Shown here: positions 7,031 through 45,770 of the stretch, piece after piece
How the letters are laid out: each line of letters starts with the position of its first letter
Position numbering within the stretch: position 1 is the stretch's first letter
NCBI GenBank assembly: GCA_030729925.1
Contig: JANQWK010000019.1
Coordinates: 62,001 to 126,000 of the forward strand
DNA length: 64,000 nt
Source of the DNA: Saprospiraceae bacterium
GTDB lineage: Bacteria; Bacteroidota; Bacteroidia; Chitinophagales; Saprospiraceae
Direction of reading: 5' to 3'
The notes under the pieces: generated by a model
The model's input: the letters and a program-made list of their open reading frames with translations, nothing else
What the model was told of the DNA's origin: nothing
Database searches by the model: none
Translations under genes and position numbers: made by a program

Positions 7031-7136
7031 TCAATAAAAAGAATGTATTCATCATTACTTTGTATCAAAGGCCATTCCTGCGATGGGATATTTTACTTAT
7101 CATACATCAATATCCAGTTTAACAGATCCCACTTTT

Positions 7137-10100
7137 ATGATGATGAAGCGCATCTTTTTCAAAATGGCCTGTCTCGCCCTGTTTTGGTTCCCATATCCGC
7201 TCGCCGCACAAATGCTGCCTATGCGCTTTACTGCGTCTGAAGGTACTTGGATCGCACTGGATGTTGATGCTCAAGGCGAAACTATCGCCTTCGAACTCCT
7301 GGGCGATCTTTATGCCCTCCCGATTAATGGCGGAACCGCTCAATGTATTGCCAGCGGCCGAGCTTTCCAGTCACAACCCCGATTTTCTCCGGATGGACAA
7401 CAGATCGCCTTCGTGAGCGATGCCAATGGGTCAGATAATCTCTGGATCATGGATAGCAATGGACAACATGCCCGACAGCTGACCCACAGGTCGTCCGATA
7501 TTATCCTATCGCCCGAATGGAACCCCAGCGGAAAGTCTATCTATTATACGGTTATGACCGACGGCTGGAGCCGAAAAACAACTATTTACGAGCTTAACCT
7601 GGATTCCGGAGAGGAACAACTGGTTTTCGATAATGCCAATGGCCCCAGTTCTATGCTGGTTTCGGCACCACCTCCGGGACCCTATACAGGGTCTGTGCAC
7701 CCCAACGGGACCTCAATTTTGTTTAGTTCTATCACTCCTCGTAGCCACAACCAACGCTCAGGGCCTAAAAGCGAGATCCTGCAGTTTTCGTTTGCGGAAA
7801 AATCAGTGGTCAAACTCCCCCTGGAAGGCAGAAATGCGATGAAACCCCTGTGGTCAAGGAATGGAAAGTGGCTGGCTTATGCCGCCGAAAAGTCAGGAGT
7901 AACCGGATTGAAGCTCCGCGATATGCAGACAGGTTCCGAGAAATGGCTGGTTTTTCCGCTTCAGCGCAATGAACTGGAAGCACGGGCAACCCGCGATGTG
8001 CTGCCCAATTTTTGCTTTACGCCCGATCATGAAGCCCTCATCATCGCGTTCAATGGAAAAATCCATCAAATACAATTAGACGATGCCAGCGCTAAAGAGA
8101 TACCCTTTACCGCTACTGTCAACCTGGATATTGTTCCTACCTTACACTTTCAACACCAAATTCCCGAAGATTCTCTTATCGCAAGGTTTGTCCAACAACC
8201 GGCAGTTTCTAAGTCAGGAAAATTGGCCTTCTCCACCCTGGGAAGGATTTATATCCGCAACACGCCAGCCGATAAGCCAATACCCGTATCACCACCAAAT
8301 ACTTACGCGTTTTTCCCCGCATGGGCTCCCGATGATGCCTTTTTGGTTTTCTGTACCTGGGATGCATCCGGAGGGGCAATCTGGCAATATGTTCCCGGGG
8401 AATTACCCCGAAAAATTACCCGCGAAAATGGTTTTTTTGCAGAGCCCGCAGTTAGTGCCGATGGCAAAAAAATAGTAGCTATCCGGGCTCCTGAGGGCTT
8501 GAAGAGGTCAACGCGCTTTCGGGCTATTCCCGATGCCTCGGAGTTTGTGATGATAGACATCCAGACCGGCCAGGTGCTGGATCAAATGCCGTCCAACGGA
8601 TACCTGCACCCCCGATTTACTGACCACCCGGAAGCTATTACTGCTGTTTCTCCCGCAAAAGGGTGGATCCTCAAGGAAAAAGGGAAACCGGATCGCCTGA
8701 TCCTCAAATCTACCATCCCCGCTAAGGATTTGAAAGTGAGTGACAATGGCACCAAAATGCTGCTCCTGACTCCCGACGGAAAGCTGTTTTCTACAGATTT
8801 GCCGGAAAAGATCCTGCTGGACAGCTACCATGAACCCGTGGAAGTGAATCCACTTGCCAATGGACAACTGCTTTCCGAAGCACTACCCGAGGCCTTTGCT
8901 TTTGCCGAAGGCGCCTCCACCGCAATATGGACAGCAGGAAATAAACTCTCGTGGCACTCCGATACTTCCATCCATACAGATATCCTGCAAATTAAGTTTC
9001 CCCGCGAACGTACCGGCGACCGCCTCCTCCTCCGCGGAGGAACATGCCTGACCATGAATGGGAAAGAAGTTCTGGAAAACGCCGACTTGCTGATCGTCCA
9101 TAACCGCATCGCCAAAATCGGCCCCAAAGGGAGTTTTACCCTGCCCGAAGGCACTACGATCCTGGATGTTTCAGGAAAGTTCCTCCTGCCCGGATTCATA
9201 GACCTTCACGCCCATCTCTACCTGAATCCAGAGGTACTCGAACCAGAGAACCCCGCCATGCTCGCAAACCTGGCCTTCGGGACGACTACCGTTCGGGATC
9301 CACAAGCTACACCCGATGTGTTTGCTTATGCCGACCTCATCGCCTCAGGCCGCGCTATCGGTCCCAGGATTTTTTCTACCGGCCCCGGATTGTTTAGCTG
9401 GGACGGGCTAAATTCCTTCGAAAAACTAAAAGCTCGATTGGAAGTCTATAAATACCGATACCAAACCGATTATATCAAGTCCTACTTGATCGGTACCCGC
9501 CAACAACGGGAGTGGATGGTAAGAGCCTGCCGGGAACTGGAACTGATGCCCACAGCCGAAGGGGGAGCAGATACCAAACAAAATATTACCCACGCCATGG
9601 ATGGGTTCAGCGGTAACGAACATTCCCTGCCACTCGCAAATTTATACGACGATGTCGTGCAGCTCTTCGCAGGTTCCCAAATTGTTTATACTCCCACTCT
9701 CTTGGTGACTTTCGGAGGGCCACTGCCTATTTACCGGTTCCTCGCAGAGGAAAAGCCCCTCGATAATCCCCGCTTGCGCAGGTTTTTTCCGGAGGAAGAA
9801 TTATACGAAAAAAGTGCTACCCGACTTCTTTTTTTCCGCCCGGATGATTACCACGTGACCGAAGTGGCTCAAAGTACGCAAAAGATTGCTGCAGCCGGCG
9901 GCAAAATAGGACTGGGCGGACACGGAGAAATGCAGGGCTTGCAAAACCATTGGGAAATGTGGCTGCTGGCCTCCGGGGGCATGGATGCCTACGAGGTGCT
10001 CCGAACCGCTACCCTCAACGGTGCACAAGCACTAGGACTGGAGAAAGACTTGGGCAGCCTGGCTGCCGGCAAACTCGCCGATGTGCTGATTCTAGACCAA

Positions 10101-12079: not shown

Positions 12080-13429
12080 TCACCCTTCAACCAACTGCTT
12101 CCGCGGGTCAATAATCCGCAATACATCGTCAATTCCAGGCTGATTGAACCCCTTGAAGCCGTCGTTGCGCTCGAGGTTTTCAAAGTGAGAGCCGATAGCT
12201 CCGTGCATTTTAAAGTTTTCTCCCATCTCCGCTGTGATGTGACCTTCTTCGACAAGGTGGTCAATTCTATTCGGGTCAACAGGCCACCATTCCCCTACGG
12301 TTAAGGCCTGGTACAGGTGTGGAAAATCAGAAAAAGGTGCCATCATGGGAATATTGAGTTCCTCAAACTGGCTATTGAAGCGCTTCGAGTCATACATGCA
12401 TTCCAGGTGATTAAGCCCCGCTTCAAGCATACTTTCGCCGTGCAGATAACACCAAAGTCCTGCCCTGCGATAAGGATGCAAAGGCGCTATGTTGGTCTGA
12501 TGAGCAAAATCCAAACCCAATTCCTCCGGAGCAAGGTCAATATCTGCAAAAATTACCGACTGCAAGACGGGCTGCTCCAGGATCTGAGAACCCCAGCCAG
12601 CGCCAGCTCCGGCATAAAACAGTTCCCGACATTCAAATCCCAAAGTTTCCAAAACCCGAATGGTTCGGTAAAACCAAGTCCGGGAACTGTCATACGTGTG
12701 GTGATCCTGGTTGGCCCAGCCTATGCCCAAAGCATCCTGTCTTTCTTTTTGAACCCTCCCGGCTCGGTTTCTCGTCATCCAGTATTCCCGCTCTGCTCTC
12801 AAAAACAAGGCACAAGACCAATCTTTGCCAAGATCCCGAACAGCTGCTTCTACCAGCTGATCCGTATAGTCAAAACCCTGCTCGGGGTGATCAAATTGCC
12901 TACGCCGAGCCCGAAATGCCTGCTGGTGTGTCTTCGCAACCCGAATAAGCGATTCGGATACAGGCTCCGGATTCACCCCCGCATACCCGTGCCGCTCGAC
13001 TACACCAAAGTCATGCGTAGTCCCCTCAAATATCCTGGCTTGCCTGAAACGACCGCCCTGCTGGCCTTCAATCGCAGCAGTGATACCATTGGCGCTGAGA
13101 AAGTCTTCTACAAATTCTACCCGAAAGTAAATCGTCTGCTTACCCACACGATGGACAAAATCCGGAAACCATCCCAATGGATTGCCATAATGCCCCACTC
13201 CTTTTTCGCGCCAGCCGGCAGCTTTCAACGCGGGAATCAATCGTTCATCGTCAAAACAAATATAGTCCAACAAGTCCCTCAACCGAATAGCGACCCGATC
13301 CAACAACAAGTCGGCAAAACCAGCAGCTCCCGGACAAGCCCTCAATGCTTCTTCCAAATACGTTCGAATAAATTGCTCCGCTACCGGTTCCGGCTTCCAG
13401 TCTCCGGTAGATCGTAAAGTGTTGTTCAT
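12080..13429 (-). CDS. Unassigned protein, faint DUF1338/HglS (VOC-like) resemblance
   Basis: A 449-residue soluble protein. ATG 13429 is preferred because it leaves an 11-bp gap after the upstream gene; an alternative start at 13459 would overlap it. I do not recognise it confidently. Two segments look like repeated vicinal-oxygen-chelate modules: DRVAIRLRDL...LIPALKAAGWREKG (about 45-78) and DHHTYDSSRTWFYRTIRVLETLGFE (about 232-256). FGVVERHGYAGVNP (131-144) resembles the FGEVExRGxALTP motif of DUF1338 proteins such as HglS, and GLNHLE (H331) resembles their NHFTP motif. Motif order differs from HglS, so this is a weak, eye-level comparison. If right, it would be an Fe(II) enzyme acting on a 2-oxoacid; the upstream dehydrogenases fit that. 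Confidence 0.75.
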   Translation of the reverse strand: MNNTLRSTGDWKPEPVAEQFIRTYLEEALRACPGAAGFADLLLDRVAIRLRDLLDYICFDDERLIPALKAAGWREKGVGHYGNPLGWFPDFVHRVGKQTIYFRVEFVEDFLSANGITAAIEGQQGGRFRQARIFEGTTHDFGVVERHGYAGVNPEPVSESLIRVAKTHQQAFRARRRQFDHPEQGFDYTDQLVEAAVRDLGKDWSCALFLRAEREYWMTRNRAGRVQKERQDALGIGWANQDHHTYDSSRTWFYRTIRVLETLGFECRELFYAGAGAGWGSQILEQPVLQSVIFADIDLAPEELGLDFAHQTNIAPLHPYRRAGLWCYLHGESMLEAGLNHLECMYDSKRFNSQFEELNIPMMAPFSDFPHLYQALTVGEWWPVDPNRIDHLVEEGHITAEMGENFKMHGAIGSHFENLERNDGFKGFNQPGIDDVLRIIDPRKQLVEG

Positions 13430-26267: not shown

Positions 26268-26948
26268 TTAGTCAAAAAGTCCGGGTAAGTCTTGAACAGA
26301 CTGGTGCAACTCGGGAGAGTTGTTGGCAATCGAATTGACCTTGTCTGATACCCTTTCTATCTTGAACAGACCATCATCAGGGGTCTGCAACAGATCCACC
26401 ACTTGGCTCATATCCTCTTCCTCCAACCACTGCTTTTGCCTGGCCCTGTCGGTAAAAATAACAGGCATCCGGTTGTGTACCCCCGAAACCTCCAGGTTGG
26501 GCGGAGTCGTAATGATCGAAAAGCTCTTTATCGCATAGTCACCTTTGTACCAAACATCCCATATCCCAGCCATTAAAATTATTTCCTCCGACTTCAACGC
26601 AATTCGATAGGGGATTTTTTGGGTGCCCACCTTTCGCCACTCGTAAAAACTGTCGGCCAAAACCAAACAACGACGATTTCGAATGGGCAACCGAAAAGAG
26701 GGCTTGGTCAAAATACCTTCCTTCCTGGCATTAATCAGCTTACCACTATTGCTCCCGTCTCTGGACCAATGTGGGATGAGCCCCCAAACCAAATACTGCA
26801 ATCGCTTTGGGCTGTCATCAGTCACCACATAAGCATGCTGAGTTGGAGCAATATTGAAACTCGTCCGGAGGTTGTTCTCAACCTCGATACCCCCAAGCTG
26901 TTTTTCAATCTTTTCTTTGGATGCTACGAATGAAAAACGACCACACAT
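26268..26948 (-). CDS. SOS response-associated peptidase (SRAP/HMCES/YedK family)
   Basis: A 226-residue protein that forms a stable thiazolidine crosslink to abasic sites in single-stranded DNA. Cys2 directly after the initiator Met (MCGRFSFVAS) is the catalytic nucleophile; other conserved residues are in LINARKEG (Asn), SFYEWRK (Glu) and SGVHNRMPVI (His). All active-site positions are present. The family is often linked to DNA-damage responses; I see no obvious SOS box. It sits directly beside the proposed replication-origin region and is transcribed away from it. Confidence 0.93.
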   Translation of the reverse strand: MCGRFSFVASKEKIEKQLGGIEVENNLRTSFNIAPTQHAYVVTDDSPKRLQYLVWGLIPHWSRDGSNSGKLINARKEGILTKPSFRLPIRNRRCLVLADSFYEWRKVGTQKIPYRIALKSEEIILMAGIWDVWYKGDYAIKSFSIITTPPNLEVSGVHNRMPVIFTDRARQKQWLEEEDMSQVVDLLQTPDDGLFKIERVSDKVNSIANNSPELHQSVQDLPGLFD

Positions 26949-27503
26949 GTTCGATTAATTTCTGCAATTAAGTGGATTGGAAAAAAACAGACAAGTACCT
27001 TGCCCGAGTTGAAGGTACACAAAAAATTTCACTCCATTCGCCCCACTCGGGTTTTTAAGATAAGCTGTTAGTCAAAGGTGGAAATCATACCTGTTTTTCC
27101 ACAAAAAGCTTTTTTTCCCAACGCCCCTAACCTCATTGATGCCAGCTTTCTCAAATACACCGGCGATATCAAGAAATTATCCACGTGCTGCTTATCTTTT
27201 TCCACGCTCCACATAGACGAAAGTTTTCCTGTTGACAACCTACCAACAGGTTGTGAGTTATTCAACAAACAACTAATTATGAATGAACTGATATGTGTAT
27301 AAGGTGTTAATACCAGGTGTGATTATCTTAACAATGAATTAACCTTGAGTTTGCACAAAAAAATTTCCACAGAATTCACAGCACTGATGATGACGATTTT
27401 TTTTTAAAAAATTTAAAGAATAGTCATTACAGGATAGTGGATAACCCAAAATTGTGGATTTTTTTTGTGGTACATTTGCCTTTCAATAAAACGAGGTTGT
27501 CTA
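26949..27503. other. Candidate replication origin (oriC-like intergenic region)
   Basis: A 555-bp gap between the divergent SRAP and heme A synthase genes. Sites matching TTWTNCACA with at most one difference, read by eye: 27095-27103 TTTTCCACA, 27177-27185 TTATCCACG, 27198-27206 TTTTCCACG, 27363-27371 ATTTCCACA on plus; 27294-27302 TTATACACA and 27436-27444 TTATCCACT on minus. A weaker site is at 27453-27461 (minus). An AT-only stretch with one G lies at 27396-27420. Overlapping inverted repeats are at 27228-27250 (CCTGTTG/CAACAGG) and 27235-27254 (ACAACCT/AGGTTGT). No credible protein-coding ORF is present. Hand-sampled lines left of this point are mostly C-rich on the plus strand and most lines to the right are G-rich, as expected at an origin. 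No dnaA gene is in the window. Confidence 0.5.
27452..27478 (+). promoter_or_regulatory. Bacteroidota-type promoter of heme A synthase gene
   Basis: TTG (27452-27454), a 16-nt spacer and TACATTTG (27471-27478) fit the Bacteroidota -33/-7 consensus (TTG...TAnnTTTG). The predicted transcript starts about 20 bp before the ATG at 27504. The -33 end overlaps the weak DnaA-box-like site at 27453-27461. Confidence 0.5.
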
Positions 27504-28592
27504 ATGAACACTTTCAGCTCAGTTGATACAGTCGGTAAGCCAAAATATCTCCGCTTCATCAAAATGTGGTTGCTGGCCGGTGTAGTGATGATTTTTTTTC
27601 AGGTGGTTATAGGTGGAATAACGAGACTAACCGGGTCAGGTCTTTCGATTACGAAGTGGGAGATCGTTACAGGGACTTTTCCCCCTATGAGCAAAGCAGG
27701 CTGGGAAGAAGCGTTTGATCTTTACAAAGCAACACCCCAATATGAAAAGATCAACCAGGGCATGACGATGTCCGAGTTTAAGTTTATTTATTTCTGGGAG
27801 TATTTTCACCGTTTGTGGGCACGCATGATGGGCATTGTGTTTATCGTTCCTTTTGTATTTTTTCTGACCCGAAAGGCTTTTGGCCAACTTTTACTTCGCA
27901 GGCTGATCGTTGTGTTTCTACTCGCCGCGCTGGTAGCGTCTTTCGGATGGATTATGGTCGCAAGTGGACTTACAGAGCGACCCTGGGTGAATGCCTATAA
28001 GCTAACCATGCACTTGTCATTGGCGTTCATTTGCTATAGCTACCTACTCTGGACTTTTTTCAAGGTATATCGCCCCAACGGAGCAGCCATGGCTTCAACC
28101 AAACTCAATCAGGCTATCCTCCTGATTGTTGCGTTGTTGAGCCTGCAAATTATTCTTGGAGGTACCGTTTCCGGCATGCGCGCAGCATTGTTGTATCCCA
28201 CATGGCCAGCTATGCACGGACAGTTTGTCCCCGAAATACTTTTACAGGCGGAAGCCTGGAATGCGAAAAATTTTGTCAACTACGACTCAAATGCCTTTAT
28301 GGCCGCCTTCGTGCAGTTTTTCCACAGGAATGTGGGCTATCTGGTTACCATACTTATCGTGTGGTTTGTGATGCGACTGATCAAAACGAATCCACCACAA
28401 TCGCTGCGAAACGCAAGCTTCGCAATGGTTGCTATGCTCGGTGTACAAGTCTTGTTAGGTATCCTGACCCTACTCAACAGCATAGGAACCGTTCCCGTAG
28501 GTCTGGGGGTTTTTCACCAGGCAGGTGCACTCGTACTCCTGTCGCTTACCCTTTGGACGAAATACCTGATCCAAAAACAACAAAGTTCATAA
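27504..28592 (+). CDS. ctaA: Heme A synthase (COX15/CtaA family)
   Basis: A 362-residue integral membrane enzyme oxidising heme O to heme A for cytochrome c oxidases. The ATG at 27504 is chosen over an upstream in-frame start. About eight hydrophobic helices are seen. Heme-ligand histidines lie in FWEYFHRLWARMMG, NAYKLTMHLSLAF, FVQFFHRNVGY and GVFHQAGALVLL, and VVIGGITRLTGSGLSITKWE is the COX15-type N-terminal signature. This indicates an aerobic respiratory chain with an aa3-type oxidase, although no oxidase gene is in the window. The 3' end overlaps the convergent YkvA gene by 6 bp. Confidence 0.93.
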   Translation: MNTFSSVDTVGKPKYLRFIKMWLLAGVVMIFFQVVIGGITRLTGSGLSITKWEIVTGTFPPMSKAGWEEAFDLYKATPQYEKINQGMTMSEFKFIYFWEYFHRLWARMMGIVFIVPFVFFLTRKAFGQLLLRRLIVVFLLAALVASFGWIMVASGLTERPWVNAYKLTMHLSLAFICYSYLLWTFFKVYRPNGAAMASTKLNQAILLIVALLSLQIILGGTVSGMRAALLYPTWPAMHGQFVPEILLQAEAWNAKNFVNYDSNAFMAAFVQFFHRNVGYLVTILIVWFVMRLIKTNPPQSLRNASFAMVAMLGVQVLLGILTLLNSIGTVPVGLGVFHQAGALVLLSLTLWTKYLIQKQQSS

Positions 28593-29101: not shown

Positions 29102-29755
29102 TCAGGCAATTTTCAACAGCGGTTGTCCAACAACCTGGTCTTTTGCTACCAAAGCCTCAAATTGGTAGCCCTTTTCTGAAAAATGAGCCAACACCTTCGG
29201 TAAAACGTATTCCAGTTTGTCGAAAGACTTGATGTTATCATGAAAAACAACAACAGATCCTGGCTCTGCATGGTTCTTTACATTAGACAAACATTGATCC
29301 TTGCTTATCTTCGGATCAAAGTCTCCGCTCAGCACATCCCACATGACAATGCGGTAGTGCCGCTGCAAAAACTGAACCTGCTTGTTGGTCAACTTCCCAT
29401 ACGGTGGCCGAAAAAGGTCTGTTTCAACCAGGCGCGCACAATGACGCACATTGTGAAAATAAGCTACGTTTTCCGTCTGCCACCCGTTCAAATGATTGAA
29501 GGTGTGATTCCCTACAGTATGGCCATTGTCCTTCAGCATATTGAATATTTCAGGGTACTTCCTGACGTTGTCCCCAACGCAAAAGAATGTAGCTTTGGCA
29601 TTGTATTGCTCTAACTGATCTACAACCCAAGGAGTGACCTCCGGAATAGGGCCGTCATCGAAAGTCAGGTAGATTACCTTTTCAGAAGTGGGAATTTTCC
29701 AGGTGAAATTCGGAAAAAAATTTTGTACGAATTGTGGGGTCTTTGTTAAATACAT
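29102..29755 (-). CDS. Polysaccharide deacetylase (NodB homology, CE4)
   Basis: A 217-residue metal-dependent deacetylase for N-acetylated glycans. VIYLTFDDGPIPEVTPWVVDQL carries the catalytic and metal-binding Asp pair, VGNHTFNHLNGW the HxxxH zinc motif, FRPPYGKLT the RPPYG motif, and VVFHDNIKS the distal catalytic His. All NodB motifs are intact. The start is put at 29755; an upstream in-frame codon at 29812 would add 19 residues without a signal peptide. Absence of a signal suggests a cytoplasmic or non-classically exported enzyme. The glycan target, for example peptidoglycan or exopolysaccharide, is not known. Confidence 0.9.
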   Translation of the reverse strand: MYLTKTPQFVQNFFPNFTWKIPTSEKVIYLTFDDGPIPEVTPWVVDQLEQYNAKATFFCVGDNVRKYPEIFNMLKDNGHTVGNHTFNHLNGWQTENVAYFHNVRHCARLVETDLFRPPYGKLTNKQVQFLQRHYRIVMWDVLSGDFDPKISKDQCLSNVKNHAEPGSVVVFHDNIKSFDKLEYVLPKVLAHFSEKGYQFEALVAKDQVVGQPLLKIA

Positions 29756-44942: not shown

Positions 44943-45770
44943 CTATTGCTGGATTTGGATGCTAATTACAGATCCTTTTTTAAGGCCGGCATATTTGTTT
45001 GCAGGTAACTGTAATCGAACAGGGCGTTCTCCCGGGGAAGTGATCGTTGTATCGTAGTACCCCTCAGCCGTGATTTCTAGGTCAGCTACTATACCTGATA
45101 GCTGTTTTACAGACTGACTACCAAATTCCTGATCCACTTGTCCATTGCGGATATGAATAATGCGATCCGACATCCGGGCGATTTCATCCCGGTTGTGGCT
45201 GACTAATAGGGTACTTAGGCCAAATTTTCGGTGTACTTCCAATATAAAGTCCTGTAACTGGCTGCGCAACTCACTGTCTATAGCGGATAACGGCTCATCC
45301 AGAAGCAAAATTTCAGGTTTTCTGACCAGCGCCCTGGCCAAGGCTACCCGCTGTTTTTGCCCTCCGGATAGGGTTTCGGGAAATTGATCAAGGATGTTTT
45401 CCAGTTCCATGACTGCGATGACCTGATCGAGATAACTCGTTTCGCCCTTCTTTTCCAAGGCAAATCGAAGGTTTTGCTTGACCGTCATATTGGGAAATAC
45501 GACATAGTCCTGGAATACCAAGCCTACCCGCCTCTGTTGAGGAGTCAGAAAAATGCGTTGCTCGCTGTGAAGCCACCACTGACCGTTGGAAGCAATAGAA
45601 CCCCTGACTTTTTTCTCAAGCCCCGCAATAATCCGGAGTAAAGTGGTTTTACCACTGCCGGAAGGCCCACTAATACCCAGCAATTCTCCCGGCTTGACCT
45701 CGAGTGCGATGTCCAGATCAAAACTATGACGCCCTATTCCCAGCTGTTTTTGTACTTGTATTTGAATCAT
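44943..45770 (-). CDS. modC: Molybdate ABC transporter ATP-binding protein
   Basis: A 275-residue ATPase. GPSGSGKTTLLRIIAGL is Walker A, LSGGQKQRVALARALVRKPEILLLDEP combines the ABC signature and Walker B, and LLVSHNRDEI is the switch His. The last 70 residues form a short TOBE-like domain (AEGYYDTTITSPGERPVRLQLP). Sulfate and other oxyanion ATPases are related; molybdate or tungstate specificity is inferred from the neighbouring ModA and ModB. Its start overlaps the modB stop by 4 bp (ATGA), so the transporter subunits are translationally coupled. Confidence 0.9.
   Translation of the reverse strand: MIQIQVQKQLGIGRHSFDLDIALEVKPGELLGISGPSGSGKTTLLRIIAGLEKKVRGSIASNGQWWLHSEQRIFLTPQQRRVGLVFQDYVVFPNMTVKQNLRFALEKKGETSYLDQVIAVMELENILDQFPETLSGGQKQRVALARALVRKPEILLLDEPLSAIDSELRSQLQDFILEVHRKFGLSTLLVSHNRDEIARMSDRIIHIRNGQVDQEFGSQSVKQLSGIVADLEITAEGYYDTTITSPGERPVRLQLPANKYAGLKKGSVISIQIQQ

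Follow-up and report, generated by a model that had tools for sequence, protein, structure and literature searches.

The non-coding gap of 555 bp at 26949-27503 of the window (the whole 64-kb stretch of DNA that was analysed) is very probably the chromosomal replication origin (oriC) of this organism, as predicted from its sequence. We have high confidence that the feature in the window is of an ordinary kind, a chromosomal origin with its working core located, and the unusual part of the picture, DnaA boxes in and behind the gene ctaA, belongs to its relatives. The motifs were observed directly, as were the order and orientation in which they stand, their conservation, the uniqueness of the core in the draft genome and its position at the skew switches of related chromosomes; it is from these that we infer that, in this organism, DnaA binds here, the DNA melts and the origin fires. 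The original prediction of a candidate chromosomal origin without dnaA beside it is thereby supported by box density, a unique match to a held-out core profile, a conserved neighbourhood and the location of the core at the skew switch of relatives.

The gap, its flanking genes and its DnaA boxes

The draft genome consists of 3.74 Mb in 104 contigs (99.79% complete by the tool's figure), and the relatives of the window found through CtaA are mostly named Saprospiraceae. ORF coordinates and Pfam matches (SRAP and COX15-CtaA) confirmed that the gap is non-coding over 555 bp and flanked, as first described, by an SRAP gene on the left (26268-26948, minus strand) and by the heme A synthase gene ctaA on the right (27504-28592, plus strand, with its ATG at 27504), the two genes being divergent. 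A block at 27450-27478 on the plus strand is kept in a same-genus relative (28 of 29 bases the same) and has TACATTTG at 27471-27478; going by the TAnnTTTG consensus, we take this block to be probably the ctaA promoter. The dnaA gene of the draft genome is on a separate contig, C36, where 3.5 kb of the dnaA locus hold two sites within one base of TTATCCACA and no cluster. One exact TTATCCACA is present upstream of this dnaA (L002:750), possibly for dnaA autoregulation.

Six sites within one mismatch of TTWTNCACA had been claimed for the gap, on both strands. Both strands do carry them, but the count is 8 (6 on the plus and 2 on the minus strand) as against 1.4 expected at the window rate. On searching with TTATCCACA, no exact copy was found in the gap, and 4 sites lie within one base of it compared with 0.24 expected at the window rate; 4 or more boxes were obtained in none of 2000 Markov-1 simulations of the gap. 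Also, 555-bp stretches with 4 boxes start only at 26890-27095 in the 64-kb window, and all of them overlap the gap. The density check suggested with the prediction hence shows the gap to be the densest DnaA-box stretch of the window, a cluster above chance of the kind looked for in an oriC. Boxes with one mismatch are TTTTCCACA at 27095-27103 (plus strand, kept in the same-genus relative), TTATCCACG at 27177-27185 (plus), TTATACACA at 27294-27302 (minus) and TTATCCACT at 27436-27444 (minus), the last lying between ctaA and the A/T stretch described below, and a weaker box with two mismatches, TTTTCCACG, is at 27198-27206 (plus). The two overlapping 7-bp inverted repeats reported at 27228-27254 are present in the sequence, where they overlap a weak DnaA box at 27230-27238 (minus strand). 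They were rejected as a functional element because the same-genus relative does not have them as repeats.

The plus strand had also been described as C-rich to the left of the gap and G-rich to the right. On the left, the GC skew is negative in all 13 of the 2-kb bins from 1 to 26000 and, further left, over the initial 60 kb of the contig, in 14 of 15 4-kb bins. On the right the description holds less well: 10 of 17 bins are positive over 30001-64000, in an unbroken run from 30 to 42 kb and with mixed signs beyond. The lines that had been named as examples count as stated, 8101-8160 with 5 G and 20 C and 45001-45060 with 19 G and 12 C. The raw cumulative skew minimum of the window is at 29628, 2.2 kb to the right of the core. 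It may be noted that this is a local skew switch near the gap, read in the window of a 104-contig draft, and that genes diverging from an origin confound the local skew around it.

Core with tandem boxes, triplets and an A/T stretch

The core of the gap starts with box 1, ATTTCCACA (27363-27371, plus strand, two mismatches), which is abutted by the weak box 2, GAATTCACA (27372-27380, plus strand, three mismatches); box 2 starts 9 bp after box 1 in the window and 8 bp after it in the consensus of the relatives. The predicted DnaA-trios CTG-ATG-ATG are present at 27384-27392 on the plus strand (3'-NAN-5' on the other strand) and follow box 1 by a spacer of 12 bp in the window and 11 in the relatives' consensus; a fourth triplet of the window core is broken (ACG). 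Shortly after the triplets comes an A/T stretch at 27396-27421, the predicted duplex unwinding element, which thus lies beside the boxes as in an oriC. The almost pure A/T composition noticed earlier at 27396-27420 amounts to 24 of 25 bases. The stretch is among the 0.1-0.3% least stable positions, but the window has at least 6 further sites of still lower stability, for which reason lowest duplex stability was rejected as proof of the unwinding site.

This arrangement is that of the basal unwinding system (BUS), which according to PMC8287927 has tandem boxes of which the first is nearer the consensus, a spacer length that peaks at 10-13 bp and at least three 3'-NAN-5' triplets. The spacer of 12 bp in the window (11 in the relatives) matches this peak. 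Three or more NAN triplets were found on the strand that the published criterion requires, no further than 16 bp from a DnaA box, by a loose rule that carries no chance level, and the broader published NAN rule fits all three triplets of the window. The triplets were also tried as canonical 3'-GAT-5' trios on either strand and this was rejected, as only the first triplet of many relatives fits (CTA, 26 of 74).

If the gap works as its layout suggests, DnaA coming from a distant locus would bind the boxes spread over 27095-27444, and the DnaA on the tandem boxes at 27363-27380 would be guided onto CTG-ATG-ATG (27384-27392) of the opened strand. The A/T stretch (27396-27421) would then melt, two helicases would load and forks would depart both ways.

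Conservation of the core and its neighbourhood

A search of 60 genomes, with that of the window among them, yielded CtaA in 55, and 80 named loci were taken. On omitting L078 and L089, which have too little upstream DNA, the upstream analyses comprised 78 loci and the window, that is 79 regions. The top enriched 8-mer upstream of ctaA was TTATCCAC, present in 53 of the 79 regions as against 3.9% of 464 background segments. Across relatives DnaA boxes peak in the gap before ctaA: the three 250-bp bins (750 bp) that lead up to the ctaA match average 1.09, 2.32 and 0.92 boxes, as against 0.01-0.18 in bins outside ctaA and this upstream stretch. For the neighbourhood we considered the named loci whose sequence extends 2 kb or more upstream of ctaA, 73 in all. 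Within 2 kb the minus strand has SRAP in 34 and dtd in 27, and one or both of them in 47 loci; the neighbourhood is widely kept. In several loci the run nadK-CBS-SpoIIE-MazG comes next after SRAP/dtd.

A weight matrix grown from the motif CTGATGATG (score threshold 12) identified a 64-bp core in 74 of the 79 ctaA-upstream regions with a score above 12, the best of 79 shuffles reaching 9.2. Five regions have no core, and the orientation to ctaA is identical in all 74 cores. The core reads, in order, TTATCCACA, a further box with ACA at its end, either overlapping the first or abutting it, three bases, CTR-ATR-ATR, a variable stretch that is often G-rich, and an A/T run; the middle T of triplets 1, 2 and 3 is conserved in 72, 70 and 67 of the 74 cores respectively. 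Since the matrix was refined on the same 79 regions that it scored, only the profile R1 on held-out sequence is independent. R1 is a sequence-only profile from 64 of the 74 cores, those left out being the window, its congener L033, five near-duplicates or apparent misalignments and three low scorers. It matches the window at 27364-27421 on the plus strand and scores 35.9 bits there, with an E of 3.9e-10 when the window is searched and of 2.2e-8 for the draft genome. Over the whole draft genome this is the one convincing site, the second-best match having an E of 2.0, and an origin is expected to occur in this way, once per chromosome.

At an E of 0.001 or better, R1 matches 29 of 37 genomes of the family (own included, and with some of the genomes possibly of the same species as training loci), while 8 of the 37 have no match. 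Of the 29 matches, 27 are just upstream of ctaA. In G009 the contig ends beside the core, and in G035 (L296:8124-9176) the core adjoins a divergent COX15-CtaA homologue that the CtaA search had missed, with SRAP still on the opposite side. Phylum-wide, with the stricter filters of the tool, an E of 0.001 was reached in 30 of 296 genomes; the core profile is therefore not universal in the phylum.

Position of the core relative to the skew switch

For the comparison with skew, which was sampled in stretches along the chromosomes, genomes were chosen from the profile matches for having few contigs, and the matches in G210, G245, G254 and G175 were left out. In five closed or near-closed genomes outside the family the core is away from ctaA, and in four of these (G328, G055, G346 and G207) it is at the skew switch; the fifth, G094, has no readable skew trend. 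The core of G055 is at 1,330,408, with ctaA at 1,397,685 and dnaA at 920,791, and the skew goes from -0.019 at 1.32 Mb to +0.065 at 1.35 Mb. On a wider scale, 10 of 10 stretches up to 1.27 Mb are negative and 9 of 10 from 1.40 Mb are positive. In G328 (core at 640,171, ctaA at 790,669 and dnaA at 2,539,354) the skew rises from -0.018 over 625-639 kb to +0.042 over 639-650 kb, and in G346 (core at 634,653, ctaA at 748,320) from +0.002 at 610 kb to +0.157 at 650 kb. G207, of another class, has its core at 12,999, with a skew of -0.048 over the preceding 12 kb and +0.011 just after; over roughly the next 200 kb the skew stays flat (-0.004 at 180 kb) before turning positive, and the opposite switch is between 1.80 and 1.98 Mb. 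ctaA is absent from the 3 kb around this core. As the core is at the skew switch in genomes where it is away from ctaA, it follows the origin and not ctaA. ctaA was likewise rejected as an origin marker for the whole order, the switch and core of G055 being about 67 kb from it.

Beside ctaA itself the skew can be followed in G060 (Ca. Parvibacillus calidus), where it is consistent with an origin in the gap (about 3.679 Mb) but noisy: the sampled minimum is at 3.718 Mb, about 40 kb from the gap, and the skew is negative again at 3.70-3.75 Mb. The core of this genome is weak (E 0.034). Over 57 loci, the skew to the right of the core exceeds that to the left in 51, and the full minus/plus pattern is seen in 32, to which gene orientation may contribute. 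Two further observations were made on G055 and G328, which are from another family of the order. Their cores (L300 and L310, respectively) are in a gap beside nadA (quinolinate synthase) and not ctaA. Also, dnaA of G328:C1 (2.54 Mb) is closer than the core (0.64 Mb) to the sampled skew maximum at 2.15-2.31 Mb.

These positions bear on the reading that the boxes are a DnaA-controlled ctaA promoter or a DnaA-titration site. A conserved promoter-like block does adjoin ctaA, and E. coli DnaA prefers closely spaced box pairs at regulated genes (PMC11317965). Yet the core is 33-408 kb from ctaA in G055, G328, G346, G094 and G210, three of which have it at the skew switch, and in G035 it stays by SRAP though its other neighbour is the divergent homologue. 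The core and A/T run also exceed what a promoter needs, and we regard this reading as highly improbable. Still less probable is an origin adjoining dnaA, as in many bacteria. The usual arrangement, with oriC flanked by dnaA (PMC4285127), and the one exact box upstream of dnaA would suit it, whereas dnaA of this organism is on another contig with its 2 boxes in 3.5 kb, and the distance of dnaA from the core or the gap is 1.4 Mb in G328, 0.4 Mb in G055 and 1.3 Mb in G060. That the gap is an integrated plasmid or phage origin, or a box cluster by chance, is hardly credible, for although its boxes are imperfect, they are enriched by the statistics given above, the housekeeping-gene synteny recurs in many relatives, and the core is conserved in 74 of 79 regions, with loss in most close relatives not seen.

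DnaA boxes inside and behind ctaA

Besides the gap, the relatives have a further peak of boxes in and just behind ctaA, where the three 250-bp bins between +500 and +1250 average 1.08, 0.58 and 1.06. For the coding tests L103 was dropped for masked bases, leaving 77 loci and the window (78 genes). These contain 149 boxes, or 1.91 per gene, as compared with 0.68 per gene after synonymous shuffling, i.e. about three times more, and 60 of the 78 genes are above their own synonymous shuffles. Examples of ctaA genes that carry boxes are L035, L039, L046, L062, L094 and others (+500 to +1100 from the match start). On taking one ctaA per 70%-identity cluster, 94 boxes were found in 48 genes against 32.5 in shuffles (sd 4.7; maximum 45 in 200 shuffles). 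Control ctaA genes came from 20 stretches of other families of the order, and the 19 left after dropping L334 (masked bases) have 4 boxes, 0.21 each vs 0.46 each after shuffling; the core is located elsewhere for 5 of the 20, and the other 15 are controls only in having no profile core beside ctaA. In 145 other long frames of the same loci there are 0.43 boxes vs 0.32 after shuffling.

The boxes recur at certain CtaA residues, namely 253 (30 genes), 195 (23), 307 (10) and 311 (12). A box is present within 100 bp after the ctaA stop in 20 of the 48 cluster representatives, and at -20 to +80 of the stop in 38 of 77 loci vs 1 of 21 control rows. In 25 of the 77 loci there is a double box at the stop, a minus-strand pair 12 bp apart with a 3-bp gap; box pairs of this kind, spaced by 2 or 3 bp, are those that DnaA favours in E. 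coli (PMC11317965). These 77 loci do not include the window or L107 (too short) and do include L103, the stop of which is a masked-base artefact; the 21 control rows come from the 20 stretches, L329 having given two open frames, and two rows have less than 80 bp around the stop. All these locus counts are not of independent events, as the loci share ancestry.

In the window, ctaA has one DnaA-like site, TTTTCCACA at 28318-28326, which is about the chance level, and no box within one mismatch is present in the 100 bp after its stop, where the end of a convergent gene overlaps ctaA. A second box cluster beyond the spacer gene, by which a bipartite origin is recognised, was not found in the window. 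The congener L033 has a double box at 7084-7104 and no box inside ctaA. On balance we lean towards a scheme in which, in much of the family, the origin is split around and through a ctaA spacer, with codons selected as DnaA boxes and a double box at the stop, and in which the lineage of the window may have lost the second half while its congener keeps the double box.

The origins of many uncultured Saprospiraceae must be predicted, and a search with dnaA as landmark would look in the wrong place. With the core profile the site can be located when only a draft assembly exists, and even when ctaA lies somewhere else, and the core offers a precise and testable unwinding site with lineage-specific triplets. 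If the reading of the ctaA-embedded boxes is true, the reading frame of a membrane-enzyme gene would have been co-opted to serve also as initiator-binding DNA, and the role of split origins would become testable outside dnaA-linked systems.

Comparison with known systems

Among the titles and abstract openings listed in a literature search, none was seen that puts a Saprospiraceae origin next to ctaA. In the bipartite origins of B. subtilis, mollicutes and Helicobacter pylori (PMC4285127) boxes flank one spacer gene and the predicted unwinding element is on one side, and this arrangement is shared by many relatives of the window. According to PMC4285127, split origins mostly have dnaA as their spacer gene, whereas in the relatives it is ctaA and boxes are also within its coding sequence; the window itself differs from bipartite origins in being without a second cluster.

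In its sequence the core resembles the BUS of Bacillus subtilis oriC and of predicted origins of many phyla (PMC8287927, PMC6669920) in its tandem boxes, the first nearer the consensus, and in a short spacer followed by three or more triplets whose middle base is fixed, as A on the bound strand. In the window BUS-like triplets, 12 bp from box 1, are followed by the A/T run. Unlike in the BUS, the triplets are mostly CTR then ATR (3'-GAY then 3'-TAY) and not repeated 3'-GAT-5', and the tandem boxes of the window and relatives start 8-9 bp apart. As to location, oriC is not always near dnaA and indicator genes vary by lineage (PMC10225481). The predicted origin in the gap is like the dnaA-unlinked origins predicted by Ori-Finder/DoriC (PMC10225481), being an intergenic box cluster near a skew minimum with lineage-specific neighbours, and it is set apart from the others by which neighbours these are, SRAP (or dtd) and ctaA.
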